Positions 5,089-21,201 of a DNA stretch of 29,388 nt are shown piece by piece; position 1 is the first letter of the stretch, and each line of letters begins with the position of its first letter. The position numbers and the translations under genes were made by a program. The DNA comes from a virus. The DNA is taken from IMG/VR virus record IMGVR_UViG_3300037336_000234, positions 1 through 29,388 of that record, one strand, 5' to 3'. A model generated the notes under the pieces. It was not told the origin of the DNA. It did no database searches and saw nothing but the letters and a program-made list of their open reading frames with translations.

Positions 5089-5100
5089 TAATAGTAAATA
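5089..5100 (-). promoter_or_regulatory. Putative phage late promoter (TTTACTATTA element)
   Basis: Read on the minus strand, the element is TATTTACTATTAGATG, between the stop at 5108 and the TTG start at 5068. It is one of seven copies in this window, six of them upstream of minus-strand late genes. No conserved -35 hexamer is found 15-19 nt upstream. The ACTATTAG core resembles single-subunit phage RNA polymerase promoters; that identification is inference. Confidence 0.6.
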
Positions 5101-5107
5101 TCAGGGC

Positions 5108-5581
5108 TTACTTAACGTTTTTAAGTGCTTGTAATCTCGCCTGGTGAGCTGGTGAATTCTTATAGTTCTTATATGCTTCTATTTCTGCTAAGAGTGTTTT
5201 CTCTCCTTCCACATCTCCAGCTGTTTCAGGTCTTATAGCTTCATAGGCTTGTCCTAAGAAAGGTATATCTCCTGGAATCTCCTCGGCAGCAGCAGATGCG
5301 TCTCCTGTAGTAGCGAAAGTAGTAGCAGCTCCTATTAAGGGAATAGCTCCTAATACTTTTTTACCGGCTTGTGATCCCATGCCTTTTAAAGCATTAATCT
5401 TAGCCATAAAGTCTGATCCCGATATTTTATTTTGAATTTCTTTTGTATTTATTTTATCAGTAACGCCTTTTACTACGGGGTTATTAAATCCTTGAGACAA
5501 TTGCTTATCTAATATAACGTCTTTTGTAGAGTTTTTTAAATTACTTAATTCAAATTGTCTTGGAGGTTGTTTCTTTTCCAT
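5108..5581 (-). CDS. Hypothetical virion or ejection-type protein with hydrophobic centre
   Basis: This protein has 157 residues; the ATG at 5579-5581 has only a weak ribosome site. The N-terminal 60 residues are polar and helical. Residues about 71-100 form a hydrophobic Gly/Ala-rich segment (KKVLGAIPLIGAATTFATTG) followed by DASAAAEE and an acidic, proline-containing stretch; the end is helical and basic. A similar hydrophobic-then-acidic layout occurs in the head-module protein at 15773-16657. Such segments occur in phage proteins that insert into membranes during DNA ejection, but this is only a compositional analogy. A hairpin (5603-5628) lies just upstream, and a late-promoter element lies just downstream of the gene. 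Confidence 0.6.
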   Translation of the reverse strand: MEKKQPPRQFELSNLKNSTKDVILDKQLSQGFNNPVVKGVTDKINTKEIQNKISGSDFMAKINALKGMGSQAGKKVLGAIPLIGAATTFATTGDASAAAEEIPGDIPFLGQAYEAIRPETAGDVEGEKTLLAEIEAYKNYKNSPAHQARLQALKNVK

Positions 5582-5602
5582 ATAATTTACTCACAATTAT
5601 AA

Positions 5603-5636
5603 GCACCGGAGAAATTAATCCCCGGTGCTATTTTTA
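5603..5636. terminator. Hairpin terminator or attenuator inside late operon
   Basis: The perfect 7-bp stem GCACCGG (5603-5609) pairs with CCGGTGC (5622-5628) around a 12-nt loop. The T-rich tail TATTTTTATTT follows on the plus-strand side. On the minus strand the sequence after the stem is AT-rich but lacks a clean T-run. As an intrinsic terminator it is therefore better for plus-strand (antisense) transcription. For the late operon it may only attenuate or protect a 3' end. Confidence 0.5.
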
Positions 5637-5637
5637 T

Positions 5638-7308
5638 TTATACAGTAGTTGTTAAAGCTCTGAACTTAATCAAACCAGTAACAAACCCTGCATTGTTTGT
5701 ACTAGTATATTGAATCTGTCCAGCTGAAGTTATTGAGAAAACTATTCCTGAATCATCACCTACAGAATCAACTGAAATGTTGAATGATCCTGCTTTGTTA
5801 ATCCCTTGAATATCTACTTGCTCATATAGATCAGCAGTAGCATCAATCTCTACAGAAACAAGGGCACTGAAAGATCTTACTACACCAGCAGCAAAAGCAA
5901 ATCCTGTTACATCAGCAGCAGCAACTTGATTGTTAGCTAGAGAGAAAGAAGTCTCTTGAATGTCTCCGGCTGATCCAACGGCTGGGATAGGATAGAAGCC
6001 CTTAGTCCCTGATCCGTTTGTACCATAATACTGTGTATTACCTGGAGAAGCTGCATCGTTTACTAATTTAATACCTGAAGCATCTGAATCGATTGATAGC
6101 TGAGTTTTAACATCAGCGACAACTGAAGGAGTTGCATCATTGTACGTAAGGTTAACAGTATCCGAGTTAGCTAGTATTCCACCAACTGTATCTTGAGCTG
6201 CTTCGTCAAAGTCAGTAACTTGCGTAGAAGGGATTGCAATTGCAGTTGAAGCAGAAGATGTTAAACGACCTTGCTGATCTACAGTGATTGCAGAAACTTC
6301 CGTAGCAGATCCGTATGATCCTGGAGTTACAACAGTATCTGAAAGTTTAATACCAGAAGCTGATTTAGAGAGTGTTGCTCCGTCTAGTTCTAGAGCTAAT
6401 TGACCGGCAATGAACTGTAGACCTTGACCATCTTGATCTACTGAAATACTAGATCCTGAAACTGTAATACCATCATCACCTGTTAATCCTGAAACAGAAT
6501 TAAAGAATGTGAAATTAATAGCATCTGTCCCAAGTGTAGTAACGACACCAAATTGAATAAAAATCTTACCTTGGTTTAAAGTACCTTCTTGAACAGCTAC
6601 GAAAGCCTTATTAATCTCATCAATAGGAGAGATTGAATCAAAGTCTGTAGATCTTGTCCATGCACCTGAAGCAGCGATATAAATACCGTTCTCTTCTGGT
6701 AAAGTCTGAGACTTTACTAATACTCTATCTCCTGCTGAAAGAGCTATTCCATCAACAGTAAGTAATGTACCAGTTGCTAAATCAATATTAGCTGTAGAAG
6801 CGGCTTTAACAGCTTCTTTAGGTCTTAGACCTTCAAGAGCGTTATCGACATATTCTTTAGTAGCAGCATCAGAGCTAGCGGTAGGAGAAGCTAGAGATGT
6901 AATCTTAAATCCGCCCATTGATTGAGCGCCTGTATAGGTAACTGATCCGTCTTTTTTAATAACTTCAGAGTCTAATGCTCTAGTGTCAATGTCAGATTGA
7001 AGTTCGTCAACAGCACCCTGAATGTCGGTAGCAGCTAAATTCCCTGATGGGATGTTGGAGATTGCAGATGCATCATGAGCATCAACAGCATCAGCAATGT
7101 GATTGTCAATAGCATTTTGAGCAGTTGTAAGTTGAGTTTGAATTGAACTAGTAACACCTGAAACGAATTCAAGCTCAGCGTCAGTAGTAACACTGGAAGT
7201 AATTTCTCCACTAGCGTTAATAGATAAAGCTTTTGAAGCTGATTCATTTGGAAGTACTAACTCACCTTCTACGACTACGTTGTTCTTAAATTTTCTAGGA
7301 TCGCTCAT
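5638..7308 (-). CDS. Tail fibre protein
   Basis: This protein has 556 residues; the ATG at 7306-7308 has AAGGAG 8 nt upstream. The N-terminus contains the fibre-shaft motif DAVDAHDASAISNIPSGNLA (about residues 71-90) and DIQGAVDELQSDIDTRA, both also found in the large fibre at 9280-12111. Residues about 120-235 contain MGGFKITSLASPTASSDAAT and a domain with GDRVLVKSQTLPEENGIY and GAWTRSTDFD, a module common in tail fibres and collar-type fibre proteins. The rest is beta-rich. The last 100 residues resemble the C-terminal domain of the 156-residue protein at 12127-12597 (pattern G-I/V-x-SITSAGQIQYTS...GLIKFRA). It probably forms a trimeric fibre used for host attachment. Confidence 0.8.
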   Translation of the reverse strand: MSDPRKFKNNVVVEGELVLPNESASKALSINASGEITSSVTTDAELEFVSGVTSSIQTQLTTAQNAIDNHIADAVDAHDASAISNIPSGNLAATDIQGAVDELQSDIDTRALDSEVIKKDGSVTYTGAQSMGGFKITSLASPTASSDAATKEYVDNALEGLRPKEAVKAASTANIDLATGTLLTVDGIALSAGDRVLVKSQTLPEENGIYIAASGAWTRSTDFDSISPIDEINKAFVAVQEGTLNQGKIFIQFGVVTTLGTDAINFTFFNSVSGLTGDDGITVSGSSISVDQDGQGLQFIAGQLALELDGATLSKSASGIKLSDTVVTPGSYGSATEVSAITVDQQGRLTSSASTAIAIPSTQVTDFDEAAQDTVGGILANSDTVNLTYNDATPSVVADVKTQLSIDSDASGIKLVNDAASPGNTQYYGTNGSGTKGFYPIPAVGSAGDIQETSFSLANNQVAAADVTGFAFAAGVVRSFSALVSVEIDATADLYEQVDIQGINKAGSFNISVDSVGDDSGIVFSITSAGQIQYTSTNNAGFVTGLIKFRALTTTV

Positions 7309-7320
7309 GTTTATATCTCC

Positions 7321-7710
7321 TTAAGATATTAGTATTTTTCCGGTAAATCGGAGGTCAGGAACAGAGTTTATTGTTATAATTACATCTTCAGAACTGTTAA
7401 CATTAACTCCTGTTTCTACTTGTAAATAATCTGATCCTACTAATTCAAACACTTGAACCGTGGGATTGTTTCTATTATGTGTAGCTTTTAGAACGGTTAA
7501 AGAATATGATCCGCTTATTAGTGTCCAGTCTGTGCTATTGTTAAATGTTATGTTATACTTGGAAGAGGAACTCGCTGCTAGTTCGTCTATAGCTCCTTGT
7601 ACGTCATTAGATGCTAGTCCTGAAGTATCGTTGTCATATACTACATTTGCAGCAGATGATGATCCTGATCCAGTTCCTGCATACCCTAGGCGTTTTACAA
7701 TATTTGCCAT
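7321..7710 (-). CDS. Small fibre-tip or decoration protein
   Basis: This protein has 129 residues; the ATG at 7708-7710 has GGAG 9 nt upstream. A short N-terminal part ends in the NDVQGAIDELA motif that closes shaft repeats in the two large fibre proteins here. It is followed by an 80-residue beta-rich domain (YNITFNNSTDWTLISGSYSL, later TVQVFELVGSDYLQVETGV). That arrangement, a fragment of shaft joined to a compact beta domain, suggests a fibre-tip or fibre-associated protein assembled with the product of 5638-7308. The genes are 12 nt apart and co-transcribed. No enzymatic residues are apparent. Confidence 0.65.
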   Translation of the reverse strand: MANIVKRLGYAGTGSGSSSAANVVYDNDTSGLASNDVQGAIDELAASSSSKYNITFNNSTDWTLISGSYSLTVLKATHNRNNPTVQVFELVGSDYLQVETGVNVNSSEDVIITINSVPDLRFTGKILIS

Positions 7711-7736
7711 AAACTAAGTCTCCATTTTTTTGTAAC

Positions 7737-8087
7737 TCAATGTGCTTGAACCGCTACGTACTTTATTTCAATTACGTCGATTGAACCAGCAGTGACCTCT
7801 ATGAATATCCTAGCGTACTGTGCTCCCGATCCATTTAAATCAAAAAGAACTACTCCTGATGAATCTACTATAAGTGCTAGACTTTCTTCGATTGTTGCAA
7901 AGTTCTCATCGTCATTAGAAAGCTGGACGTAGACTTTTAAATCTGCTCCTACTCCGTTTTCATATAGAACACTTATAGAAAATGCTGATATTCTATCATC
8001 TAAAGAAACACTGGGACTATTCCAGTCTGTATTAATCGTCTCAGGAGCTAATAATAGCTGCTTCTTTTTTATCTGATCAAAAACCAT
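7737..8087 (-). CDS. Small beta-sandwich virion/decoration-like protein
   Basis: This protein has 116 residues; the ATG at 8085-8087 has AGGGGA 7 nt upstream, and a late-promoter variant (8108-8120) lies just beyond. The sequence alternates hydrophobic strands with polar turns (LKVYVQLSNDDENFATIEES, FDLNGSGAQYARIFIEVT, then an IDVIEIKYVA strand). This is the profile of the small beta-sandwich proteins phages place on tails or capsids. I recognise the pattern (NDxENFxTI...DLNGSGAxYARxFIEV) from other phage hypothetical proteins but know no function. It heads a short operon that continues into the fibre proteins 7321-7710 and 5638-7308. Confidence 0.65.
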   Translation of the reverse strand: MVFDQIKKKQLLLAPETINTDWNSPSVSLDDRISAFSISVLYENGVGADLKVYVQLSNDDENFATIEESLALIVDSSGVVLFDLNGSGAQYARIFIEVTAGSIDVIEIKYVAVQAH

Positions 8088-8107
8088 GTTATTTTCCCCT
8101 ACTAATA

Positions 8108-8120
8108 TAATAGTATATTA
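8108..8120 (-). promoter_or_regulatory. Putative late promoter, variant copy
   Basis: The minus strand reads TAATATACTATTATATTAG, so TATACTATTA replaces the TTTACTATTA found at the other six sites. It lies in the 37-nt gap between the holin-like gene and the ATG at 8087, followed by the AGGGGA ribosome site. It is the only diverged copy, hence lower confidence. Confidence 0.45.
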
Positions 8121-8124
8121 CCTG

Positions 8125-8394
8125 TTATTCTTTATCTAACTTAGCCTTGCCGTTGCCAAAGCTTCTTCCAAAATAAAGCCCTGCACATAAAACAGTTAGT
8201 TGAAACGTTCCGTCTAGATCAACTGCTAACCACCCAGTGAGCTTGTTGATAAGTGCAAAGACGTACAAGTGAAAGCTTATAAAGAGCATTGTTAGACTTA
8301 CACTTGGAGTCCCCTTAACAGGATCTCTTATATACGGAAGTTTTATCCCTAACGTATGTGCTTTATCTAATAGCTGTTCCAGTTTGTCTTTCAC
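8125..8394 (-). CDS. Putative holin (two transmembrane segments)
   Basis: This protein has 89 residues. It starts with GTG (8392-8394), which overlaps the TAG stop of the preceding gene as TAGTG. An N-terminal amphipathic helix of about 25 residues is followed by two hydrophobic segments, roughly residues 30-50 (SVSLTMLFISFHLYVFALI) and 60-75 (FQLTVLCAGLYFG), with a short loop, and then a charged C-terminus (KAKLDKE). Size, two-span topology and charged tail suit a class II-like holin or another small lysis-related membrane protein. The phrase KGTPSVSLTMLFISF is one I associate with phage holin-like proteins. No endolysin gene is visible beside it, so the assignment rests on sequence form alone. 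Confidence 0.55.
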   Translation of the reverse strand: MKDKLEQLLDKAHTLGIKLPYIRDPVKGTPSVSLTMLFISFHLYVFALINKLTGWLAVDLDGTFQLTVLCAGLYFGRSFGNGKAKLDKE

Positions 8395-8627
8395 TAATAA
8401 TTCCCGTTATATCTAAAGTCTTGCCACTCTTTAAAGTTCTTTACTTTAGCCGTCTTAATATTTTCCTCTGAGAATAGCTTAGGTAAGTCTCTAAGATATT
8501 TCCTGTAGTCTCTGTACAGTGCCCGAGTTTTAGTTTCAATAGGAAAGTCCGGTAACATATATTTATCGGTTTCCTGAAGAAGTTTATCTCGCTTAGCTCT
8601 TAATAAGTACCAAGCGTCTATTTTCAC
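8394..8627 (-). CDS. Tail fibre assembly chaperone-like protein
   Basis: This protein has 77 residues. It starts with GTG (8625-8627) overlapping the previous TAG stop (TAGTG). The core RAKRDKLLQETDKYMLPDFP followed by YRDYRKYLRDLP matches the pattern R..RD.LL..(S/T)D...LPD.P....R..W..YR..LRDLP, which recurs in phage tail-fibre assembly and tail-assembly chaperone domains (the Phage_tail_APC type). Location immediately downstream of the main tail-fibre gene fits that role: such proteins help fibre trimers fold and are usually absent from the virion. The last 25 residues are basic and show no motif. Confidence 0.7.
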   Translation of the reverse strand: MKIDAWYLLRAKRDKLLQETDKYMLPDFPIETKTRALYRDYRKYLRDLPKLFSEENIKTAKVKNFKEWQDFRYNGNY

Positions 8628-9268
8628 TAGTAGTTAGCGAGTATAGCTAAGCAATCAGCTTTAAGTTCGGCTGATACTATGGCACTCGGCTCAACTGATT
8701 CTATCAAGACCTTAGAAAGACTGGGACGAGAAGTCATAAGAGCTGATTGGATTGGACCGAATACTGTTTGCATTTCGGTGATTTGCTCTATTGTCAGAAC
8801 TTTATCTAGATTATCTCCAGCAATTAGATCTAATACTTGTTGGCAAATTTCTCTAGCGGCTTTACCCGCTTGTATTTTATCTTGCTTAGCTTTTTCAAGA
8901 GCTATTTCAGCGGTTAAATCTTGCTGCTCAACTTCGTACTCGCTTGCTACCTGGATAGTTTCAAATGTTGCCGGAACCATTTCAGAAACAAGAACCTCCT
9001 GGTCTTCAAACATTGCTTCGGTAAAAACTGGAGGGTCAAAAGATAAGCCATTTTCATCAAGGACTTCTTCCGAGGGTACAATTAAAACCGACTGAGTTTC
9101 GTAAACCGCTGGGACGCTCTCAGTGACAATTTGCTCAAATGAGTATGCAGCATTTCCAAAAGACTTCATCTCTTCATGCTCAAACAGCCATGCATCGGCA
9201 AGCTCTTGAGTTTTAAACGATGCTTGATTTGTGATGATGTTTTGTTTTTTGATTGTGATTTGTATCAT
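8627..9268 (-). CDS. Tail-fibre-associated protein, chaperone-like
   Basis: This protein has 213 residues, ATG at 9266-9268, 11 nt after the large fibre gene. The N-terminal 110 residues are acidic and beta-rich, with two similar blocks (VPAVYETQSVLIVPSEEV and VPATFETIQVASEYEVEQ), an internal duplication. The C-terminal 80 residues are helical: a KAAREICQQVLDLIAG segment, then LTIEQITEMQTVFGPIQSAL and SRPSLSKVLIESV. The last part resembles small helical domains next to phage fibre genes in which a TIEQI.. helix is followed by a KALI/KVLI helix. Together with its position between fibre and assembly-chaperone genes, this suggests a fibre assembly or attachment factor; not proven. Confidence 0.6.
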   Translation of the reverse strand: MIQITIKKQNIITNQASFKTQELADAWLFEHEEMKSFGNAAYSFEQIVTESVPAVYETQSVLIVPSEEVLDENGLSFDPPVFTEAMFEDQEVLVSEMVPATFETIQVASEYEVEQQDLTAEIALEKAKQDKIQAGKAAREICQQVLDLIAGDNLDKVLTIEQITEMQTVFGPIQSALMTSRPSLSKVLIESVEPSAIVSAELKADCLAILANY

Positions 9269-9279
9269 AATTATTCCCC

Positions 9280-12111
9280 CTATTCAATTTTAGCGATTGA
9301 TAAAAAGTTGTAATCAGGGACAGCTGAGAAGAGACTTGTTGAGCCTCTTTCATTTACTCCCCTCATTTCTATTGTTTCACCTTTGCTTAAATAAACAACA
9401 TCGCTATATCCGCAACCTACATTCGTTGTAATGGAAGCCCATGCTCTGTTTTGTGCGCCAGATGAATACAAAATGCCATTTTTAAAAAGTACCAACCAAA
9501 CTGCGGCACCAGTAGTATATGCAGCCGAATTGAAAACAATTCCAGCATTGACTTGATAATATCCAGATTCTGGTGCTGTAAAAATTCCAGTTGTTGTGTT
9601 CAATGAATTGTGGGTGTCATAAGTTTTAGCAGAATTCCAAGTAATGGTTGCTGCTATAGTGTTAAGTACTTGACCTGAAGTGCTGACTGCCCTAGCAGCA
9701 ACACGTTCTATATTTAACCCTGTTAGCGCAGGATTTTTACTAGCGTTGATTACGAGGAATCCGTTTGCTTGAAAAGTCACATCTGAAAAATAGAATCTAG
9801 AAACGCTTATTACTGAAGTTCTAGTTGCGCCTGAGTCTAAGTATAAAATGCCAGTAACTTCGTTGTAAGTTTTATTTAAGATTCCGTCTGATTCCGTGGT
9901 ATCAAATAAGGCAAAGTCGATATTACCAGCAGTAACTTTACCGGCACTCTTATATAAATTAAGAGATGTCCCCTTCAGCCCTTTACCTATTTGTATAGCA
10001 ATAGCAGCAGGATTTCCGGTAGTACTTGCAGCATTAAATGCTCTAGTAAAAATCTGAATACCATTTTGGTTCATACTCGCAATAGACTGTGATGGAGCTG
10101 ACCCACTTACTGACCTAGTGTTTGTATTTGCAGCATAAGTATAAGTAGAGAATGTGCCAACTGGGTCGTTAGCGTTTACTTCAGTAGCTTTAAACACTAA
10201 AGGAGCTGTGTCTGTGCTGAAGGTGTCAGGAGCGGTGAGGATGTTTCTGTTAGAAGCTGTCCAACCCAAAATAGGAATAGTAATATTTAAACTTATTGTA
10301 TCGCCCGAAGCGTAAGCAATAGGAGTGCTTGGGCCACCCGGGTTAGAAAACTGAGTGTTGGCGTAACCAGCAATACTGACGGTGGAGCTTGATTTATTCC
10401 AGTGGACTGTCATTGCTCCAAGGTTTGCTAAGTTAAAGTCTTTCATTGTAGCTGTACCAATCGAAACTAAAGTCTGTGCTGAAGTACCTAAAGTTAACTT
10501 CGAAGTATCTACGGAAAGTCCTAACCCATTTAATAATTGTGCTGATGTGAAAGTTAAATCTCCTGCGTTCGGAGCGCCTGCCATGTTCAATAAAATTTGA
10601 ATTTGAGCCGAATCTCCCATCCTGCGAATCATTCCAGAATATGTCGTGTTTGTGGTAAAGCTTCCCAAGGGAGTATAACTTGCCCAGTCGGTCATGTTAG
10701 CAATGTCTGCATAAACCGTAGAATCAGCAGTCAACTCAATTGAATCAAAAGCAAATATTCTAGTCGAATTAAGCACTTTCACTTGAAATCCAACACGAAT
10801 AGAAGCGCATGTTAAAGGAATTGGTATATTAGTTTTAAAGATACCAACTGAAGTTGAAGCTTGAATAAATGATGAACTAGGAATTATAGCAGCGTTAGTA
10901 ACATCATAGAAAATTACTTCGATGTCATTATTTGCTCCATTATAAGTAAATGGAAAAAAGAGAGTTGCGTCTTTGCCACGAAAGCGAACATCTACGGCTT
11001 TTGCAGGACAAGCTAGGTAGTCATTAAGTGAACCAGCGGCTTGTGTATAAACATAAGAAGCACCGCCCTGAAGAGGTGTTGCGGTATTCTTAACAAAAGT
11101 ACCAGAAAGCGCTCCAGCTCCTAAGAAGGTTGCATTGTCTCCAGTAGTCCAATCTGCAAGGAGTTCTTCGGCAGTAAGTTGAAAGACAGTAGCCAAACTA
11201 CCATTTCCACTTCCAACTGATTCTAAAAGTGAATCTACAACTTGATACATCAACTTTTCATCAGTAGCAAAAACTAACTGACCATTTGGTGAGGTTGTAG
11301 CATAAGTGACGAGATTTGCTTTTGTATCTTTTTTAACATCTGAACGAATCGGAGATTCAATTGAAGCGCCGGTTAATGTCTTGTTAGTTAGAGTTTGAGT
11401 ATTGGTAGTACCGACAACTGCACCTGTTGCTCCGTGGGCAACAGTAGAACTTTCGTGAGCTGTAAAAGCTACTGAAGTAGCCCGAGTATCAACATCACCT
11501 TGAAGATCATTTAAGGCTCCTTGAAGTTCATTTAAGGCTCCTTGAACTGTAGTTGCTGCTAAGTTTCCTAGTGGAGAATTTGAAATAGCTGAAGCTGCGT
11601 GTGCTCCGGTTGGGTTTGTGACGTGACTTGATAAAGTATCAACATCACCTTGAAGTTCATTTAAGGCTCCTTGAACATCCGTAGCAGCTAAGTTTCCCGC
11701 TGGGACATTTGAGATAGCAGAAGCGTCGTGAGCATCTACAGCGTCGTTAATGTGATCAGACAATGCTGTACTAGCATTTGAAGCGGTAGTTGAAATGGCA
11801 GATTGAACTGCTAAGGCTGAAGGGATTTGAGTATCAGTAGCTCCAGCAAGGACTGTGTCTACGTTAAGCACTCCTGACTTTAGGTTATCAGTCTCAATGT
11901 TAGAAAGAATATTTACATCAACGTCAATAGTTTTGTTTGTCAAAGACTGAAACTGACTCTCAGTAACTATGTTTCTAAGAGCACCATCAAGATAAGCATG
12001 TAATTTCTTAGAGGCAGCTCCTACTTTTATTTCGCCTTCAATCCCATCTACTCCTATATCATCTGGAGATAATATAATCCCGCGCTTTAATCTTTTTTTA
12101 ATAATAGTCAT
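9280..12111 (-). CDS. Large tail fibre with C1q-like receptor-binding tip
   Basis: This is the longest gene in the window (943 residues); ATG at 12109-12111 with GGAG 7 nt upstream. The N-terminal 90 residues include KRGIILSPDDIGVDGIEGEI and FQSLTNKTIDVD. Residues about 110-250 hold two or three shaft repeats of the form DAHDASAISNxPxGNLAA followed by a VQGALNELQGDVDT segment and a TNTQTLTNKTL motif. The middle is beta-rich with probable carbohydrate-binding-like folds. The last 135 residues form a C1q/TNF-like jelly roll: TTTGIFTAPESGYYQVNAG, then VWLVLFKNGILYSSG, then VVYLSKGETIEMRGVNERG. C1q-like domains trimerise and often bind receptors at fibre tips. This is the likely main host-recognition protein. 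Confidence 0.85.
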   Translation of the reverse strand: MTIIKKRLKRGIILSPDDIGVDGIEGEIKVGAASKKLHAYLDGALRNIVTESQFQSLTNKTIDVDVNILSNIETDNLKSGVLNVDTVLAGATDTQIPSALAVQSAISTTASNASTALSDHINDAVDAHDASAISNVPAGNLAATDVQGALNELQGDVDTLSSHVTNPTGAHAASAISNSPLGNLAATTVQGALNELQGALNDLQGDVDTRATSVAFTAHESSTVAHGATGAVVGTTNTQTLTNKTLTGASIESPIRSDVKKDTKANLVTYATTSPNGQLVFATDEKLMYQVVDSLLESVGSGNGSLATVFQLTAEELLADWTTGDNATFLGAGALSGTFVKNTATPLQGGASYVYTQAAGSLNDYLACPAKAVDVRFRGKDATLFFPFTYNGANNDIEVIFYDVTNAAIIPSSSFIQASTSVGIFKTNIPIPLTCASIRVGFQVKVLNSTRIFAFDSIELTADSTVYADIANMTDWASYTPLGSFTTNTTYSGMIRRMGDSAQIQILLNMAGAPNAGDLTFTSAQLLNGLGLSVDTSKLTLGTSAQTLVSIGTATMKDFNLANLGAMTVHWNKSSSTVSIAGYANTQFSNPGGPSTPIAYASGDTISLNITIPILGWTASNRNILTAPDTFSTDTAPLVFKATEVNANDPVGTFSTYTYAANTNTRSVSGSAPSQSIASMNQNGIQIFTRAFNAASTTGNPAAIAIQIGKGLKGTSLNLYKSAGKVTAGNIDFALFDTTESDGILNKTYNEVTGILYLDSGATRTSVISVSRFYFSDVTFQANGFLVINASKNPALTGLNIERVAARAVSTSGQVLNTIAATITWNSAKTYDTHNSLNTTTGIFTAPESGYYQVNAGIVFNSAAYTTGAAVWLVLFKNGILYSSGAQNRAWASITTNVGCGYSDVVYLSKGETIEMRGVNERGSTSLFSAVPDYNFLSIAKIE

Positions 12112-12126
12112 CTACATTCTCCGTTA

Positions 12127-12597
12127 TTATTCGATATCGTTAAAAACTTTAGCTTTAAACCTGATTTCACCTACATAAGACGATCCTGGTATATCTGATG
12201 AAGTGTATATTATTTGTCCACTAGAGTTTATATCTAGTTCTACTCCTGATTCTCCTTCGGACTCAATAGTAATCCTCCAGTCTGTTCCGTTGTAGTTCCC
12301 TCTTATTACTCCTGAGGAAACTGAAGACGAGCTATCCGTTGTACGACGTATAATGTATTCAGCATTTATAGAGATAACTTCGGTTGTATTGAAGCTAAAT
12401 CCTAGTATAGGAGTAGGAGTACTGATATTATTCAGGATAGAGGCTGTAGTAACAGGAATGTCATTTGGAGCTTGTACAGTACCTAAAGCACGGGCAACTG
12501 CTTCTAGGTAATCAGTAACTGACTGACCATAGTTACCGCCTTCGCCTTCGTTTGGCACTTCGTAGGACTCATTTCCGATAATTAAAATCTTAGGCAT
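12127..12597 (-). CDS. Fibre-associated protein sharing a C-terminal domain with fibre 5638-7308
   Basis: This protein has 156 residues; the ATG at 12595-12597 has GGGAG 6 nt upstream and a late-promoter element 19 nt before it, so it is the first gene of the fibre operon. The N-terminal 45 residues (PKILIIGNESYEVPNEGEGG, then a YLEAVARALG helix) act as an adaptor-like segment. The remaining 100 residues follow the same strand pattern as the end of the 556-residue fibre: a VISINAEYIIRRTTD strand pair, GVELDINSSGQIIYTSS, and a final GEIRFKAKVF. It is probably a small virion protein decorating or capping a fibre. No catalytic motif is seen. Confidence 0.65.
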   Translation of the reverse strand: MPKILIIGNESYEVPNEGEGGNYGQSVTDYLEAVARALGTVQAPNDIPVTTASILNNISTPTPILGFSFNTTEVISINAEYIIRRTTDSSSSVSSGVIRGNYNGTDWRITIESEGESGVELDINSSGQIIYTSSDIPGSSYVGEIRFKAKVFNDIE

Positions 12598-12615
12598 AAA
12601 TATCTCCCTAATATG

Positions 12616-12627
12616 TAATAGTAAATA
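12616..12627 (-). promoter_or_regulatory. Putative phage late promoter (TTTACTATTA element)
   Basis: The minus strand reads AATATTTACTATTACATATT, directly followed by AGGGAG and the ATG of 12127-12597. It is adjacent to, and points away from, the sigma-70 promoter of the denV island (12647-12675). Same class as the copies at 5089, 15762, 18919, 21192 and 25439. Confidence 0.6.
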
Positions 12628-12711: not shown

Positions 12712-13083
12712 ATGACACGTATTAATGTTGTTCCCGTTGAATCTCTTTCTAGGCAACACTTAGTAGCCGAATACAGGGAAATAACTAGGCTACCTAAGAA
12801 TCTAAAGGTGAGCTTATCAAGGAAGTCTAAGCCATTTTCCATGTCAGAGATACCGGATACATATGTACTAGGAAATGGTCATGTAAAGTTCTTTTATGAC
12901 AAGATGCTTTTCCTTGAGAATAGATTTAAACAACTAGTAAGTGAGATGCTTAGGAGAGGCTATAATCCTAGTTATATGGATGAAACTATTTTTAGAGATT
13001 GCCCGACTAAATATTATAATGACTATACTCCCACTGAATGCGCTATAGATTTAAATAAAGCTAGAATAAAAGAAAGGCAATAG
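12712..13083 (+). CDS. denV: Pyrimidine-dimer DNA glycosylase / endonuclease V (DenV family)
   Basis: This 123-residue protein is clearly related to phage T4 endonuclease V. The enzyme finds cyclobutane pyrimidine dimers in ultraviolet-damaged DNA, cleaves the glycosidic bond and nicks the backbone by beta-elimination. The catalytic features are present: MTRIN start with Thr2 (its alpha-amino group is the nucleophile after Met removal), HLVAEYREITR at 16-26 with Arg22, Glu23 and Arg26 in the T4 positions, then GNGHVKFFYDKMLFLENR and RRGYNPSYMD. It is about 15 residues shorter than T4 DenV (138) and lacks the aromatic C-terminal tail (WYKYYG region) that helps dimer recognition. GAGGT sits 4 nt before ATG. 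It is on the opposite strand to its late-gene neighbours, with its own promoter, like a moron cassette. Confidence 0.88.
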   Translation: MTRINVVPVESLSRQHLVAEYREITRLPKNLKVSLSRKSKPFSMSEIPDTYVLGNGHVKFFYDKMLFLENRFKQLVSEMLRRGYNPSYMDETIFRDCPTKYYNDYTPTECAIDLNKARIKERQ

Positions 13084-13258: not shown

Positions 13259-13281
13259 GGGGACGACAGAATGCCGTCCCC
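13259..13281. terminator. Hairpin between convergent genes
   Basis: The perfect 7-bp stem GGGGACG (13259-13265) pairs with CGTCCCC (13275-13281) around a 9-nt loop. It sits between the end of the denV island (13252, plus) and the end of the capsid gene (13297, minus). There is no real T-run on the plus side. The minus side has CTCCTTTC. It probably acts as a shared terminator or 3'-end stabiliser for the two convergent transcripts. Confidence 0.55.
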
Positions 13282-13296: not shown

Positions 13297-14559
13297 CTAG
13301 ACAGTCTTAAGATATTTAATCATAGAAAGCTGACCAACAGCTGCTGAGAAAAGAGCTTGGTCTGTATAGAGTCTTAACTCATAACCATTCTCATTCTCAA
13401 GAAGACGGAAGAATCTTCCTTCTTCAACACCTGGCATTTGGAAAGTAACTTCTGTAGAACCGATACGCTCTAGCTCTTTAGGAGGTACTACGAAACAAAG
13501 ACCTTCTTTAATGAATAGAGAAGATACGATTTCGATTTTACCGTTCTGACCGTGGAAAGAGATTTTGTTAGTTCCTTCTTTAAGCTCTTTATCAGAGTAA
13601 GAAGAATCAAACATTCTCTTAGCATTTAGATCAGAAAGAAGCTTATCCCAATGCTTAGGGTTAACTAGAGCAATAACATCTTCTTCCATTAATCCTTTTT
13701 CCATAGAACGAGTAACAGCTCTTTCAATTAGATCGAAAGAAATGAATACTGCACCAGTTGTAGCATCAGTACCTGCTTCGATTACGTTACCTTTGAAAAG
13801 GTCATGCTGAGAAGCATCGATATTGAAGATAGTACCAGTGTTTGTAATGATCTTATGAAGACCAGCACATTCTTTCTGGTAAGCGCCAGCATACCAAATG
13901 ATATCAGCAGCTGCGTTTTCAGGATCTACGTCACCAGTAACACCGGCTGGAACTGAATCAACAGTAATAGTCTTAGCTTGAAGATCTACGTTAGTAACAG
14001 TAGCGTTACCACGAGTAGTACCAGCTTGAGAACGGATATTGATCAACATGTTCTTAGAACCTGACCATAGACCAGCAGCCCATTCAGCATCACAGATACT
14101 GATAACAAGACCAGACACTGATTTAACTTTACCGATACCAGACTGTCCGTAGAACAACTGGGACTCAAGACGGATATGCATAGACTTAAGCATAACTTGA
14201 ACAAGACGCTTAGTAGCTTGCTCAAAAGAGTTCTTAGAACTAACAGAACGAGCAGCAGCTCCAACAGAGATAGCTGAACGAAGTACTAGCTCACATCCAC
14301 GAACTTGAGCATCTTCCATAGCAGAAGCAATTGACTGCTGAAGAGTAAATACAGCGCCTGTGTCTCCACCGTAAGAGAACCCGTGTTCTAGACTTAACGA
14401 AACTGGACTGTGATAAAAGTTACCCGGTTGTTTTTCAGCACCATTGAAGTCTAACATGTTGTAAAGTTTTACGCCTTCAGGAACTAGATCTTTAATTTTG
14501 TTAGCATAACTTTCTTTAAAAAGACCGTTAAGTGTGCCAACGTCTACATACTGAGCCAT
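13297..14559 (-). CDS. Major capsid protein
   Basis: This protein has 420 residues counting from ATG 14557-14559, which has AAGGA 7 nt upstream; a GTG 24 nt further out (14583) lacks a ribosome site. Position directly after a scaffold gene, size and composition fit a HK97-fold major capsid protein of the P22-like or podovirus group. Features: an N-terminal arm (MAQYVDVGTLNGLFKESYAN), a long-helix region near residues 85-140 (KRLVQVMLKSMHIRLESQLF), a domain around VNPKHWDKLLSDLNAKRMFD, and a C-terminal strand set (FRLLENENGYELRLYTDQAL) ending in YLKTV. It forms the icosahedral shell around the scaffold, which is later expelled. A 183-nt leader separates it from the scaffold gene. Confidence 0.85.
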   Translation of the reverse strand: MAQYVDVGTLNGLFKESYANKIKDLVPEGVKLYNMLDFNGAEKQPGNFYHSPVSLSLEHGFSYGGDTGAVFTLQQSIASAMEDAQVRGCELVLRSAISVGAAARSVSSKNSFEQATKRLVQVMLKSMHIRLESQLFYGQSGIGKVKSVSGLVISICDAEWAAGLWSGSKNMLINIRSQAGTTRGNATVTNVDLQAKTITVDSVPAGVTGDVDPENAAADIIWYAGAYQKECAGLHKIITNTGTIFNIDASQHDLFKGNVIEAGTDATTGAVFISFDLIERAVTRSMEKGLMEEDVIALVNPKHWDKLLSDLNAKRMFDSSYSDKELKEGTNKISFHGQNGKIEIVSSLFIKEGLCFVVPPKELERIGSTEVTFQMPGVEEGRFFRLLENENGYELRLYTDQALFSAAVGQLSMIKYLKTV

Positions 14560-14602
14560 TGAATTTTCCTTTTTTGTGTCCACTATAGGACAATTATTAT
14601 TT

Positions 14603-14622: not shown

Positions 14623-14742
14623 GCCTCTTTATACTCTGGCGGGAGACACTTCCGGTTTACTTTTCTTTTTGCGGTTGTTTCTAAGCTCAGTATGAGTTGT
14701 TAAAAAGCCTTAAGTATACTTTGTAAACTTTCCGTAAATTGT

Positions 14743-15681
14743 TTATCGTTTTCTAAAAAAATCTTTTGCTTTAATCTTTGGGCTACTTACAACTTCCTGT
14801 TTAGCCCTTGCTCCGGCTGATGTAGGCTTAATATCCGCAAGAGTAGGAACAGATTTAGCTGCTACTCTTTTCTTACGAGCCTTAGTCAAACGCTCTTTAC
14901 CAACCCAGTCCTCGAAAGCTTCGTCTTCTAGACCTTCAAATAAGCTTCCTAGTTCTGACCTAAGTTCCTTCTCAACGAGAGGCACTACATCATCAGCTGT
15001 TACATCACCAAAGCCGTTATTAATAGCCCATAGCATAGAATCAGCAATCTTCTTCCTTACTAGAGGAGAATTAGGTAGCTTAGTGTGACCAGAAATAGCC
15101 TTATCAATCTCTTGATTTAAAGAGCTAACTGCTTGCTCGTTAAGCTTAGACATCTCTGCTTGCTGTTCTTTTTCTTCTTGAGCTTTTAATTTAGCCCTCA
15201 ACTCCTGCATCTCACTCTGCATTCTTTCAGCAGCTAATTGCTCAGGAGACTTCTTCATCTCTTCTATTTTCTTTTGGATAAACCCAGCAGATAGTTCCTC
15301 TGGATCAAGTCCCATTTCAGCTAAAACTGAGAATGGATCTGATTTAAGTCTTTCCATTTCTTTCAAATACTGCTTTTTTATATTTGCAGTTTCTTGCATT
15401 CTTCTTTTAGCGGCTGCTGATAATTGAAGCTCGTTTTTAACTGCTTCCATATCATTTAAGTCAATCTCGGTCTCCATTTCTTGACCATCAACTTTTAACT
15501 TAAACTTACGAATCATCTTATTAGCTTCAGCAGCAGAGATTTGACCGTCTTCTACTGCTTGCTCAAGAGCTTCAATTTCTCCTGATTCTCCTGATTCCTC
15601 TGAAGACTGATCTTGACTTTCTACTTCTTCTACGTTAGACTCTTCTGGAGCCGAGCTTTCTACTGGAGCTTGTTCTGACAT
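14743..15681 (-). CDS. Capsid scaffolding protein
   Basis: This protein has 312 residues, ATG at 15679-15681. The first 45 residues are extremely acidic (Glu/Ser/Asp). Then comes the block KFKLKVDGQEMETEIDLNDM and QLSAAAKRRMQETANIKKQY, which I recognise from scaffold-type proteins encoded between portal and capsid genes in podovirus genomes. A following SDPFSVLAEMGLDPEELS segment leads into a long coiled coil (about residues 120-205). The C-terminal 40 residues are strongly basic (KARKKRVAAKSV, then KIKAKDFFRKR), as expected for the coat-binding end of a scaffold. It organises procapsid assembly and leaves before DNA packaging. A late-promoter element lies about 80 nt upstream. Confidence 0.8.
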   Translation of the reverse strand: MSEQAPVESSAPEESNVEEVESQDQSSEESGESGEIEALEQAVEDGQISAAEANKMIRKFKLKVDGQEMETEIDLNDMEAVKNELQLSAAAKRRMQETANIKKQYLKEMERLKSDPFSVLAEMGLDPEELSAGFIQKKIEEMKKSPEQLAAERMQSEMQELRAKLKAQEEKEQQAEMSKLNEQAVSSLNQEIDKAISGHTKLPNSPLVRKKIADSMLWAINNGFGDVTADDVVPLVEKELRSELGSLFEGLEDEAFEDWVGKERLTKARKKRVAAKSVPTLADIKPTSAGARAKQEVVSSPKIKAKDFFRKR

Positions 15682-15761
15682 TTATTTATCCTTAGTTAAA
15701 CTTAGTCGTGTCGTCGATTATAAGTTTATTGAGGAGCCGTAATTGGTTATCCTCTGCTTTC

Positions 15762-15771
15762 TAATAGTAAA
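15762..15771 (-). promoter_or_regulatory. Putative phage late promoter (TTTACTATTA element)
   Basis: The minus strand reads AATTTTACTATTAGAAAGCAG. It lies immediately after the stop of 15773-16657 and about 80 nt upstream of the scaffold start, so it would give extra transcription of scaffold and major capsid genes, which are needed in large amounts. Confidence 0.6.
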
Positions 15772-15772
15772 A

Positions 15773-16657: not shown

Positions 16658-16817
16658 CCTCGTCCCTTTTTTTTCTTAGTATTTCTAATAAATCCATAGA
16701 CTCTTCATATTTAGCAGGATCTAACATATCTTCTTGTCTACGAAGCTTATCCTCTTCTTTTCTTCTGTTTCTTCTATTAAGCCTCTCTTGTGCAATCTCT
16801 TTCAATGTGTCAATCAT
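16650..16817 (-). CDS. Small highly charged helical protein of the head module
   Basis: This protein has 55 residues from ATG 16815-16817, 4 nt after the portal stop; an in-frame TTG at 16844 would overlap the portal gene and is less likely. The sequence is a charged helix: MIDTLKEIAQERLNRRNRRK, then EEDKLRRQEDMLDPAKYEES and an acidic/basic tail. No membrane segment or motif is recognised. Short charged proteins between portal and scaffold are common in podovirus-type head modules. Its stop overlaps the start of the metalloprotease-motif gene (ATGA-type junction region), so it is part of the same coupled unit. Confidence 0.6.
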   Translation of the reverse strand: MIDTLKEIAQERLNRRNRRKEEDKLRRQEDMLDPAKYEESMDLLEILRKKRDEDE

Positions 16818-16821
16818 TTTA

Positions 16822-18888
16822 TTATCCCGTGATTGGAGGAGCAATTTGTTGTGCCATCATATCAGCTGCTGTAGTAGGAGCACCGTTAGATGCAGTAGCA
16901 GGCTGAGCAGGAGAAGGAAGTTCTCCTTGCATTTGACTCTGTAAATCTATAGCATTAGCATCAGGATTACTTTGTAAACCGTCCTCAGGAGGTGTTCCTG
17001 GTTGAGGAGGGTTCATTGGAGGCTGCATAGGCTGCATAGGCTGCTGACCTAATCCGATAAGTATTTGAGCTACTGAAGGATCTTGTAGTATATTAATATG
17101 TTCTTGGATATGTCCAAGTACTCTATCGACCAGCTCTGGGTTTTGCTTAAGCTTAGCATCGGATAATACATACTTATGTTCTTGAATATGTAATAAATGT
17201 TCATCAGTTATGAGAGCGGATACTTCAGTCTTACCTGAGAACAAGTCTTCATTTTCAGAACGTATGTACATATTCTCTTTTGTAGGACCTTCTGTCATAG
17301 TTTCAAGTTTACCTGTATTTAATACTGATAAATAATCTTGTGCAGTTTTAATTAAGCCCATCTGAAGTAAGCTTTCAGCTATCTCTAGTTTCCCTGCTGT
17401 AGTTTGACTGAGTGCGTTCGCAACATCTACCATTACTCTATGGATATCAGAGAGATCATCCCCCGTGAATTCTTGCATAAGACTAGAACTTGCTTTTCCT
17501 GAGATCTCCGCAATACGAGGAACTGATGCAAAGTCTTGAAGTAGGAACACTAAATTAGTACCTACGTCTTCAATTAAATGAATATATGAATTTTGTAGAC
17601 CTGATATAAACTGCAAGGCTTGAGACTGAATTAATGCTAAAGCATTTCCTGAGCGTAAATTCTGCTTAGGATCAGGATTACCTCTTGCGACAGAGTTAAT
17701 ACCGGATACAGTCTCCATAGCTCTTTCTAACATTTGTAAAAATGTGAATATCTCTTGAGGAGTTTGAGTAAGGTTTAGAGGCTGAGGAGGATTAGTTCCT
17801 GGATCACCTTCAATAAGATTAAGACCTGAAGATAGTTCCGCCATGGTGATGTTAGCGTCTCTTTGAGCATATATATTTTGAACACCGAAAGTAGATTGAT
17901 TTGTTAGGATAGTTGAATACAAAGAGTTGACTGCATCCTGAATAGGAAGTAGATTCCACATCACTGTATAACCGTAAGGAGTTCCTAGTATATCACGAGC
18001 AGATATTCTGAATATTGGAAGATTACGATAAGGCAATACCGTATCCACTAGAATCGTTTCATTGTTAAGATAAAGTACATATCTACCTTTAGGAAGGGAC
18101 TCCGTAGGCTTATGGAAGAACTCATACACTGGAACATCAACCGTCTCATCATAAGGAGATAAAGCTATTCTACGTGATTGTGTTTCTGATTTTGTTCTTA
18201 CTGCCAGTATCTCGTCCTCTAATTCTGGGTATTTAGCCGCTAAATCGAACTTATTCTTGAAGGTTCTGCATAGTTGCCAGTCATGTTTGGATGTCTCTTT
18301 AGTAGAATCGAACACTACATCAAAAGGGGACATAACATTAAATTCTACATCTCCTTCGTATATAGGATAACTTGCTCTAATCTCTTCGCCTGTTATAGGA
18401 TCGATTTCAGCATCAGTATAATCGTAGATCTTACCATTAGTAGAGTTCCACTCCATTTTTATATATCCGGTACCCATAACTACAGCATATTCTACTGCTT
18501 TCTTAAGATATGTCTCTAATCTCTTATCTCTCATGTAATATTCAAGTAGACCATTAGCAAGAGTTGTTTGAGCTTGTGATTTATAATCAGTGTTAATTGC
18601 CCTGGCTTGAAAAGCTGGACGAGTGCTTGTTACCATCGTTAAAATATTTTGAGCAATGTTTTCGTAGTGATTTACAGCAAGGTTTACAAGTTCCCCTTGC
18701 TCTCCTCCTCTAGAAATAGCATGTCCTGCTTCATAATACTGCCCATGATAAGCTTGCCATGATCTCTCTACTTTATCAAGTAAGTTAGACTCAGATAAAG
18801 TATTAAACCATGAAAAGGATCGTTTATTCAAGTAATTAACTAACTCTTCTGATTCATCTGCTGCAAAATATGTTTGTTTACTTAACAT
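16822..18888 (-). CDS. Portal protein (P22-like)
   Basis: This protein has 688 residues, ATG 18886-18888. It forms the dodecameric ring at one capsid vertex through which DNA is packaged and ejected. Recognisable features are an N-terminal WQAYHGQYYEAGHA region, NLAVNHYENIAQNILTMVTS, VEYAVVMGTGYIKMEWNSTN, a SPFDVVFDSTKE segment, and the central stem and crown region RDILGTPYGYTVMWNLLPIQ followed by DAVNSLYSTILTNQSTFG. The last 90 residues are low-complexity (QPMQPMQPPMNPPQPGTPP and Ala/Gln/Pro-rich). Size and pattern match the P22-type portals of podoviruses. A late-promoter element lies 30 nt upstream, so it leads the portal-scaffold-capsid operon. Confidence 0.85.
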   Translation of the reverse strand: MLSKQTYFAADESEELVNYLNKRSFSWFNTLSESNLLDKVERSWQAYHGQYYEAGHAISRGGEQGELVNLAVNHYENIAQNILTMVTSTRPAFQARAINTDYKSQAQTTLANGLLEYYMRDKRLETYLKKAVEYAVVMGTGYIKMEWNSTNGKIYDYTDAEIDPITGEEIRASYPIYEGDVEFNVMSPFDVVFDSTKETSKHDWQLCRTFKNKFDLAAKYPELEDEILAVRTKSETQSRRIALSPYDETVDVPVYEFFHKPTESLPKGRYVLYLNNETILVDTVLPYRNLPIFRISARDILGTPYGYTVMWNLLPIQDAVNSLYSTILTNQSTFGVQNIYAQRDANITMAELSSGLNLIEGDPGTNPPQPLNLTQTPQEIFTFLQMLERAMETVSGINSVARGNPDPKQNLRSGNALALIQSQALQFISGLQNSYIHLIEDVGTNLVFLLQDFASVPRIAEISGKASSSLMQEFTGDDLSDIHRVMVDVANALSQTTAGKLEIAESLLQMGLIKTAQDYLSVLNTGKLETMTEGPTKENMYIRSENEDLFSGKTEVSALITDEHLLHIQEHKYVLSDAKLKQNPELVDRVLGHIQEHINILQDPSVAQILIGLGQQPMQPMQPPMNPPQPGTPPEDGLQSNPDANAIDLQSQMQGELPSPAQPATASNGAPTTAADMMAQQIAPPITG

Positions 18889-18918
18889 GGGTACCCTTTA
18901 ATTAAAGCTTCTATAGTC

Positions 18919-18930
18919 TAATAGTAAATA
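18919..18930 (-). promoter_or_regulatory. Putative phage late promoter (TTTACTATTA element)
   Basis: The minus strand reads TTATATTTACTATTAGACTA, in the 47-nt gap between the terminase stop and the portal ATG. It has the G after the core that would be expected at a transcription start. Confidence 0.6.
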
Positions 18931-18935
18931 TAATG

Positions 18936-20420
18936 TTATTTTCGCTTGTTTTTGCCGAATATCTGAGATAAAGCCTGTGCTAAAGACGATTGAGGAGAGT
19001 TATCAGTTCTAACTCCTTGAAAAGAGGAAGAACTCATGTTTAATCCATAACCTGGAGGAAAAGGGTTATGAGTTTTTACAACAGATCTATGCATATACAA
19101 TAAACAATCAAGTAAGTCGCAGTGAGAAGCAGCTAACTTACCGCTAGTACTAGCTTTTAGTCGCTTAAACTCAGTTTGAGCATTATTCCACTCAGCGTGG
19201 CGCATATGATAAAGTAAATTCTCACATCTAGGATGTATAATTATATTTCTCTGTAGTATAGCCACGTCTAATGCATTTAGAGCTGCTTGTTTTTTGTCTT
19301 TTTTAGTTTTAGTAAAGCTAATTCCATGTAACTTCTGTAAATCCGTAAGTAAAATTGCATTGTTTACGTCAGATACTCGCATATAAGGTTGAAGCTGCGA
19401 TTTATCAATAGGATTAGTCCAATAAATACGCTCTTTTTCTTGGATCATCTGGGCTAGTACTTGCGTATTAGTAGCCCCATCCACGGCAATTTCATCTAAT
19501 ATAACTAAAATAGCTTTTTCATAGTCATAATACCCAAAAAGAATTCCTGTAAGATCTTTTCCTCCTGGATCAAGAGATACATACTTATCGCAAAAAACAG
19601 GGGCAGTAAAATCACTGCGGACAATATCAGCTTCAGCTACTTCATTGAAAGAAGGAAGGATTGATTTTTCCGTACCTCGTATGATATGACATAAATATTC
19701 CCTACGGAACATGGGATCATCTGCTCCCATAGGATACTCTTCTTCTGCTTCCTTAATGGCTTCAGCATTAAAGTTAGGGTTATCATATATGGTATAGACC
19801 TTTATACGATTTTCAGATTTATAAGGATATACCCAATCCTGAATAAATTCATGATTCTCAGAACGACTGGGAGTGGATACCATAATAGTACGTCCCTTAG
19901 TAAGCTTTACTGTAGGTCCCATTACTGATCTGATACCGTATGTTAAATCGTCACAGAAGCCGCTCTCATCAATACAATTTAAATCTGAATCTCCTCCTCT
20001 AAGATTTTCCCACCCTCCTCCGTCAGATCCTGAAATTTGAATCTCAGATCCGTTATGAGGGAATCTAAAGCACTTTTCAGCAGTCATGTACACAGGCTTA
20101 ATATCCTCAGGACAGTCTTCTAATATCTTCCTCATTACAGGCATTAGCATTTTCTTTGCCATGTTACCTTTAGGAAAGGCGTACTTGACCACAGCGAATT
20201 TCTTTTTAAGACATACTTCTAGTGCCATTGATAATAATAGGTAAGTTTTACCTAAGCGCCTAGAACATAGTACTACGGATATGTTATTAAAGTCTGATAG
20301 GATACCTGATTTTATTTCTTTTTGAGGTTCAGTTAGTTTCCAGTCTAGGATTCCCTGTCTCCATAATATATCTCTTGCTCTTTTTACTTCGTCAACCTGT
20401 GTTTTTTTTACCTTACTCAT
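18936..20420 (-). CDS. terL: Terminase large subunit
   Basis: This DNA-packaging motor has 494 residues counting from ATG 20418-20420, which has AAGGA 5 nt upstream; the ATG 6 nt earlier would sit on top of that ribosome site. The N-terminal ATPase has a Walker A variant CSRRLGKT (52-59), Walker B LNCIDE (148-152, with D151 and E152) and the coupling motif VSTPS (181-185). The C-terminal RNase H-like nuclease has its acidic residues in YVSLDPGG (D284), ILDEI (D309/E310) and HCDLLD (D435/D438). It cuts concatemeric DNA and pumps it through the portal. The gene overlaps the preceding small gene (putative small subunit) by 8 nt. Adjacent to the portal gene, as in most tailed phages. Confidence 0.92.
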   Translation of the reverse strand: MSKVKKTQVDEVKRARDILWRQGILDWKLTEPQKEIKSGILSDFNNISVVLCSRRLGKTYLLLSMALEVCLKKKFAVVKYAFPKGNMAKKMLMPVMRKILEDCPEDIKPVYMTAEKCFRFPHNGSEIQISGSDGGGWENLRGGDSDLNCIDESGFCDDLTYGIRSVMGPTVKLTKGRTIMVSTPSRSENHEFIQDWVYPYKSENRIKVYTIYDNPNFNAEAIKEAEEEYPMGADDPMFRREYLCHIIRGTEKSILPSFNEVAEADIVRSDFTAPVFCDKYVSLDPGGKDLTGILFGYYDYEKAILVILDEIAVDGATNTQVLAQMIQEKERIYWTNPIDKSQLQPYMRVSDVNNAILLTDLQKLHGISFTKTKKDKKQAALNALDVAILQRNIIIHPRCENLLYHMRHAEWNNAQTEFKRLKASTSGKLAASHCDLLDCLLYMHRSVVKTHNPFPPGYGLNMSSSSFQGVRTDNSPQSSLAQALSQIFGKNKRK

Positions 20421-20763
20421 CAGCATCCTTGGTAGATGCTAGTTTCAGTAATTTTGCCACATCAGGCTTCTCATTACTTACTTTCTTTTCTACTACTGGA
20501 GATGCTTTACCTTGTGCTAGTAATAAGTTCTTTACGAGCAAATCTAGTACTTTTACTTCATTAAGCTCTAGTACTGCTCCTTTCTCTACGGCTAGTCTAT
20601 ATTTAGCAATCTGATTCCTGCATACGAATTCTGCATCTGAGACGGTCGGAATTGAGTCAAGGAGGTCATTATCCCTTAGGATAGACTCGTACTTCTCTAT
20701 CTGCGATTTACACTCAACTAATGCTTTTCTAAGGCGATCTAGTTCCAGGTCTGGAAAGTCCAT
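20413..20763 (-). CDS. Putative terminase small subunit
   Basis: This protein has 116 residues, ATG 20761-20763, immediately upstream of and overlapping terL. The protein is mostly helical: MDFPDLELDRLRKALVECKS, then an IEKYESIL helix, a central segment with CRNQIAKYRLAVEKG, and a basic, less ordered C-terminus (VEKKVSNEKPDVAKLLKLAS). Small terminase subunits bind the packaging site and regulate the large subunit; they are very diverse in sequence and are usually encoded directly before terL. The call is by position and helical character only. A clear helix-turn-helix is not visible. Confidence 0.55.
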   Translation of the reverse strand: MDFPDLELDRLRKALVECKSQIEKYESILRDNDLLDSIPTVSDAEFVCRNQIAKYRLAVEKGAVLELNEVKVLDLLVKNLLLAQGKASPVVEKKVSNEKPDVAKLLKLASTKDADE

Positions 20764-20772
20764 GGTTACTCC

Positions 20773-21105
20773 TTAGAATTTAATTGCAGGTTTTTTAACA
20801 GAAGGAGCTGAAGAAAAGTTAGCCCTTTCAATACTTTGACGGGATTGCTCGAACTTCAGCTCTTGAAGTTTATCTTCATAAATCTCCTTATCTTTCTTAA
20901 ATTGTTCTAACATCTCATTCTTTAAATTCTCGATCTTCTTAGTTATACTTGGGAGTTGATGAGATTGAATATAGATATCGAACCCTGTAAGAAGGGCTAG
21001 GGAAAATAAAACAATTGAATGGGCTATTGATATTGGAACGAACGCAGAATACACTGAGTAAGCTAGTAATAGTGTTCCAGGTAATGGGATACGAGGGATT
21101 TTCAT
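20773..21105 (-). CDS. Small membrane protein with coiled-coil tail
   Basis: This protein has 110 residues, ATG 21103-21105, 9 nt before the putative small terminase. Two hydrophobic segments are visible, about residues 10-27 (TLLLAYSVYSAFVPISIA) and 29-46 (SIVLFSLALLTGFDIYIQ). A charged coiled coil follows at 52-95 (TKKIENLKNEMLEQFKKDKE) and then a basic, Pro-containing C-terminus. This topology could belong to a spanin-like or holin-accessory protein, or to a membrane anchor in assembly; none is proven. It is the first gene of the packaging operon. The TTTACTATTA element about 90 nt upstream is probably its promoter. Confidence 0.6.
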   Translation of the reverse strand: MKIPRIPLPGTLLLAYSVYSAFVPISIAHSIVLFSLALLTGFDIYIQSHQLPSITKKIENLKNEMLEQFKKDKEIYEDKLQELKFEQSRQSIERANFSSAPSVKKPAIKF

Positions 21106-21191
21106 AAGAGTCCTTAGTTAACAGATTTTTACCCCAGTTGTTATATATGAGGTATAATGTGTGCTAGTGAGGATTAAGTTCCTCTAACTTG

Positions 21192-21201
21192 TAATAGTAA
21201 A
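21192..21201 (-). promoter_or_regulatory. Putative phage late promoter (TTTACTATTA element)
   Basis: The minus strand reads TTAATTTACTATTACAAGTTAGAGG, in the 109-nt divergent gap between the late block and the small plus-strand genes. It is the rightmost copy directly in front of a late operon (membrane protein, TerS, TerL). The same gap has a plus-strand TATAAT (21153-21158), but its -35 is poor (TTTACC at 19 bp), so a plus-strand promoter there is uncertain. Confidence 0.6.

Follow-up and report, generated by a model that had tools for sequence, protein, structure and literature searches.

Late genes of the window and the element before them

The window analysed here is the entire IMG/VR record IMGVR_UViG_3300037336_000234, a 29-kb viral fragment (29,388 nucleotides), and the subject of this work is a short element repeated before its late genes. 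The minus strand carries the terminase, P22-type portal, scaffold-like, capsid and tail genes, and small early genes occupy the plus strand from about 21 kb onwards. Five exact copies of TTTACTATTA and one variant with a single change, TATACTATTA, occupy intergenic sites on the minus strand, each before late genes; the initial annotation had listed these six copies (5089, 8108, 12616, 15762, 18919 and 21192), and their coordinates, strand and placement upstream of late-strand genes all proved right. The whole late element measures about 21 bp and is made up of a 10-bp block 1, a 6-nt spacer and a purine-rich block 2.

The first late operon is preceded by the element at 21181..21201 (TTTACTATTA at 21192-21201, N6, AGAGG at 21181-21185), 87 bp upstream of the open reading frame (ORF) 20773-21105, after which follow c37 and the terminase large subunit gene (TerL, 18936..20426). 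At 18908..18928 the form is TTTACTATTA-N6-AGAAG, and the portal gene (16822..18888, P22_portal 7e-16), our anchor gene for comparing relatives, begins 30 bp downstream. The scaffold-like ORF 14743-15681, followed by the major capsid protein gene (13297..14583; phrog_14242, 4e-11), has its element 80 bp upstream, at 15751..15771 (TTTACTATTA-N6-AGAGG). Downstream of the capsid gene is an intrinsic minus-strand terminator with a 10-bp stem, 7 GC (13259..13281), and before the late-strand gene that comes next, ORF 12127-12597, stands the element at 12605..12625 (TTTACTATTA-N6-AGGGA), at a distance of 18 bp, with AGGGAG being the Shine-Dalgarno sequence of that ORF too. The variant element at 8097..8117 has a shifted block 2, AGGGG, and ORF 7737-8087 begins 20 bp downstream, while the element at 5078..5098 (TTTACTATTA-N6-AGAGG) is found 20 bp upstream of ORF 3983-5068 (family c48).

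The flanking similarity that had been described loosely as TTAGAGG within 15 nt is real and in fact sharper, as block 2 (AGAGG, AGAAG or AGGGA) begins exactly 6 nt past block 1 at 5089, 12616, 15762, 18919 and 21192, and is offset by +1 nt relative to these at 8108. Block 2 doubles as a Shine-Dalgarno sequence at 5089, 8108 and 12616; it is also kept at 15762 and 21192, where no start codon follows it, and must therefore be more than a Shine-Dalgarno sequence. In the aligned sequences upstream of block 1 no common -35 hexamer was seen, as had been noted before, and the late element thus differs from a host sigma-70 promoter (TTGACA-16/18-TATAAT).

Chance is a poor explanation for these copies. 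Exact TTTACTATTA occurs seven times on the minus strand of the window and not once on the plus strand, whereas 300 Markov-1 simulations put the expectation at 0.19 per strand and never exceeded 2; in 100 simulated windows no 10-mer exceeded 5 copies. Likewise, 757 letter permutations of TTTACTATTA averaged 0.17 minus-strand copies, the top one, with 4, being an overlapping frame of the same sites. Allowing one mismatch gave 15 sites against 7.8 expected, and so diluted the signal. The earlier list, right for its six copies, had overlooked two exact minus-strand ones. The first, at 4537..4546 within ORF 3983-5068, is a sequence match that is probably due to chance or internal to the gene. The second, at 25439..25448, is intergenic in the early region, has no block 2 and no minus-strand gene shortly downstream, and could initiate an antisense or regulatory RNA.

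The early strand looks different. Sigma-70 sites with 11-12 of 12 matches number six on the early plus strand, with none in the late 20 kb. The site at 26605..26632 is perfect (TTGACA-16-TATAAT), and the near-perfect ones lie at 21446..21473 (TTGACT-16-TATAAT), 22491..22519 (TGGACA-17-TATAAT), 24361..24389 (TTGACT-17-TATAAT), 24622..24650 (TTGACC-17-TATAAT) and 27171..27199 (TTGACT-17-TATAAT), the sites at 24361 and 24622 having TG before the second hexamer.

Same places and different letters in related phages

A portal search returned 41 IMG/VR loci. The aligned portal query gave 366, from which we retained 80, and eight related records of 74-86 kb were read whole. Close DNA relatives of the window were absent from the phage collection, both by DNA and by the extended motif. 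The nearest public phage is Proteobacteria phage MWH-Nonnen-W8red 1 (CP017838, host Silvanigrella), a partial, unannotated 43-kb record with identities of 29% for TerL, 28% for the portal and 28% for the capsid. Terminal repeats were not used as a sign of complete records, since in G001 and G009 they fall within tandem repeats. Long poly-G/poly-C tracts stand at the start or end of several records (G003, G008, G014, G015) and are perhaps a natural G-run where assembly breaks.

None of the eight whole relatives uses TTTACTATTA at the corresponding places, and each has a late-strand block of its own: CACCCTTA in G003 and G008, CAACCTTA in G009, GCTATTAT in G001, TAACAAGTTA in G013, TAACAACTTA in G014, TAACAAATAT in G010 and TAACAACTAT in G015. 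Lineage-specific forms include TTAACAA[ACG]T, CA[AC]CCTTA and GCTATTAT, and the first of these recurs in phages with a portal identity as low as about 50%. The G003 element in full reads CACCCTTATATTACAGAGG, with TTAACAACTA and TTTACTATTA being blocks non-cognate to that phage. Intergenic copies on the opposite strand are rare. The late/opposite counts of the blocks are 9/0 in G003, 8/0 in G008, 11/0 in G013, 10/1 in G015, 9/1 in G010, 7/1 in G009 and 6/2 in G014, counts that on their own are partly circular, as these motifs were picked by enrichment in the same data. Across 76 loci, the late strand has 105 copies of TAACAACTA and the opposite one has 10, whereas words of shuffled letters average 12 and 10.

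Much less circular is the placement of the blocks at orthologous genes. The portal gene has its genome's own block 14-34 bp upstream in 8 of 9 genomes, and the terminase operon has one 350-550 bp before c37 in all 9. Own blocks also lie 18-35 bp upstream of c52 (7 of 8) and 4-22 bp upstream of c54 of the ejection module (7 of 7), and in G001, G003 and G008 the c48 orthologue has one 4-16 bp ahead of it; among some 85 portal genes surveyed, a block was visible upstream of most. In addition, half of the late-strand terminators (7 of 14) are followed by a block and then by the next late gene, the capsid terminator being the instance in the window.

A separate observation concerns relatives in which the block that precedes the capsid gene and a 112-aa gene is followed by GCCTC(T/C)AAATATC / GGCTCTAA(A/G)T (L010 9509, L014 14336 and 7686, L015 14717, L051 14556). 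This shared sequence is a possible conserved 5' leader.

The element as a probable late promoter

The order of terminator, block and gene, together with the orthologous placement, is the arrangement that would be expected of promoters, and one that translation or RNA processing would be hard-pressed to explain. An element acting on RNA, for translation, processing or as a leader of late mRNAs, would account for the many blocks that stand 14-34 nt before start codons and for the use of block 2 as a Shine-Dalgarno sequence at 5089, 8108 and 12616. However, block 2 is retained far from start codons at 15762 and 21192, blocks stand 350-550 nt before some genes and just past terminators, and Rfam leaders gave no match, so that we regard an RNA element as quite improbable. 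Judged from sequence, the element very probably functions as the late promoter of the virion-building genes, and the proposal of a phage-specific promoter at late-operon starts finds strong support in its strand bias and position, in the two arrangements named above and in the confinement of near-consensus sigma-70 promoters to the early region. Unchanged positions with changed letters are, moreover, the pattern that a late promoter with a co-evolving reader would leave.

The start of transcription would lie at block 2 or just ahead of it, some 6-7 nt past block 1, since block 2 in some cases serves as the Shine-Dalgarno sequence, as at 12616, in G009 (22632) and in G013 (52365). If those transcripts do carry a usable ribosome site, their start can lie at most about 6 nt past block 1, and such a start would fit a -10-like single element, as in phiEco32.

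Which polymerase reads the element

The initial annotation favoured a phage single-subunit RNA polymerase. A T7-like enzyme reading the element as a 20-23-bp promoter, from about -17 to +5, would suit a contiguous element of about 21 bp that lacks a -35 and has its core between an AT-rich 5' flank and a purine-rich initial transcribed region, as well as its confinement to late genes and the divergence of cores between relatives, as seen among T7-class phages. Against this, the PF00940 RNA polymerase was found neither in the window, itself a 29-kb fragment, nor in 16 related records (17 in total), with T7 (1e-110) and N4 (1e-14) detected as positive controls, and T7-type motifs B and C found no convincing match in any ORF. 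The large early proteins examined have other identities, namely DNA polymerase A or B, DnaB helicase/primase, ribonucleotide reductase or nucleases. In G013, whose early region is contiguous over 42 kb, no unknown protein as large as T7 polymerase was found, and the three ORFs of greatest length (622-765 aa) are related to the enzymes just named. The suggested likeness to the T7 core CACTATAG does not generalise either, the relatives' cores being unrelated (TTAACAACT, CACCCTTA). We therefore consider this enzyme a very improbable reader. A separate observation on the same enzymes is that in G014 (L086 7911-14596) intein/homing-endonuclease domains lie within both DNA polymerase A and the DnaB helicase.

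A host alternative sigma factor could also read the element, with the letter variants mirroring differing hosts. This would agree with the lack of a recognisable phage factor and with the sharing of TTAACAA[ACG]T by phages with portals about 50% identical. However, related phages differ in their blocks (CACCCTTA, CAACCTTA, GCTATTAT, TTTACTATTA) in a way that tracks phage lineage, and we know of no host sigma promoter of this form. Host assignment from three contigs of metagenome-assembled genomes gave inconsistent phyla. A host sigma thus seems distinctly unlikely.

We favour, with a probability of roughly 0.6, a reading in which the host core RNA polymerase reads the element together with a phage specificity factor not recognised by sequence. 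Early genes would be read by the host sigma-70 RNA polymerase, and later the phage-encoded factor would redirect the host core enzyme to the late blocks. Such a factor, either a highly diverged sigma or an activator that binds DNA, would recognise block 1 with no -35 element, and factor and block would diverge together between lineages. Of the initial proposal, the late sigma or activator that had been offered as an alternative to the polymerase is the part that is left, albeit with no sigma recognisable by sequence.

Several results weigh against this reading. The sigma family of phiEco32 and 7-11, phrog_1740, had no credible match in the family records, with phiEco32 and 7-11 themselves matched; the sole match, in G009, reached 0.008 over 36 residues and lies on the late strand. 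The PF04542 sigma domain was not found in these records, and a five-member sigma profile and hhalign returned noise, with the gp47-gp36 positive control at 96.9%. In addition, the copy at 25439 has no late gene downstream, some late genes, such as ORF 5108-5581, have no block, strong sigma-70-like sites barely exceed chance in some relatives (G010, G014, G003), and the circularity of the strand counts has to be borne in mind. A phmmer search with T4 gp55 found nothing, which is weak evidence of absence as gp55 also misses other phage sigmas, and a gp55-like sigma this divergent could have escaped. A match to phrog_1400, 'Srd anti-sigma', was rejected, as it is really an endonuclease VII domain.

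A narrower form of the favoured reading would name c62, with its neighbour c61, as the late specificity factor, on account of position and predicted DNA binding. The two genes form a syntenic pair that closes the early cluster in all eight whole records, and c62 is predicted to fold as a winged helix (Pfam Pox_D5 2.4e-5; AlphaFold predicted local distance difference test score 82) with weak winged-helix fold matches. However, c62 is very divergent among phages with a common TTAACAA block, which is why we rate the pair as an unlikely candidate; it also has no sigma likeness, and for the helical protein c61 a fold search matched no known fold. Many further small early proteins lack an assigned function, and the window record does not extend to the c62/c61 region. 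The alternative identity of c62 as a terminase small subunit was dropped, having no PHROG support.

A bolder reading, plausible though less likely than not, is that a large uncultured podovirus family turns to its late genes with a kind of phage specificity factor not described before, related neither to sigma-70 nor to single-subunit polymerases. This factor would read a single-block promoter that lacks a -35, and block and factor would have been jointly respecified several times within the family. A literature search on the promoter of this phage family found nothing. The phages offer a natural series of promoter respecification over a large uncultured family, with the same gene positions and different promoter letters, and finding the partner would bring to light either a highly diverged sigma or a transcription-specificity factor of a new class, along with several cognate promoter-factor pairs to study.

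Neighbouring genes

A lone plus-strand gene (12712-13083) lies in the minus-strand late cluster, flanked by the capsid terminator and the element at 12616, and matches the endonuclease V / UV-repair N-glycosylase family (phrog_1183, 4e-41). On the early plus strand, at least five small ORFs of 62-99 aa at 21215-23595 (starts 21215, 21584, 21803, 23216 and 23404) appear to belong to a single family, their C-termini being alike (TPLEKLI, TPLEELL, NPLERLL). Further along the plus strand, 26265-26501 encodes a 78-aa protein with a PhaR-type DNA-binding domain (PHB_acc_N, 4e-14) and orthologues in G001, G003, G008 and G009, and 27935-29251 encodes a 438-aa pentapeptide-repeat-like protein (A(N/D)LSGADLS...).

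Comparison with known late promoter systems

T4 late promoters, which depend on gp55, gp33 and gp45, consist of a single -10-like block without a -35 and serve late genes only. Their core, TATAAATA, differs from the block sequences found here, phmmer detected no gp55-like sigma, though so divergent a protein might escape it, and we know of no T4 counterpart of block 2. T7-class promoters resemble the 21-bp element in being contiguous over about 20 bp, with a purine-rich start and a lineage-specific core, and differ in the polymerase, as PF00940 is missing from the 17 family records.

In phiEco32 (Kuravirus), middle and late promoters are read by the host RNA polymerase with the phage sigma gp36 (PMC8948821, PMC4331800), which recognises a single element, tAATGTAtA, with the start 6-8 bp downstream, and in its relative 7-11 a different sequence occupies comparable places in the genome (PMC8948821). 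The likeness extends to a single element of about 9-10 bp without a -35 before late genes and to a 77-kb podovirus genome with a terminase-portal-scaffold-capsid late cluster opposite the early genes. Block 2 starts 6 nt downstream here, which is compatible with the phiEco32 start. The element letters differ, and a sigma of the gp36/gp47 type (phrog_1740) was not found in the family records, which speaks against membership in that group. Nevertheless, phiEco32 is the closest functional model, and the system in these phages may work alike.

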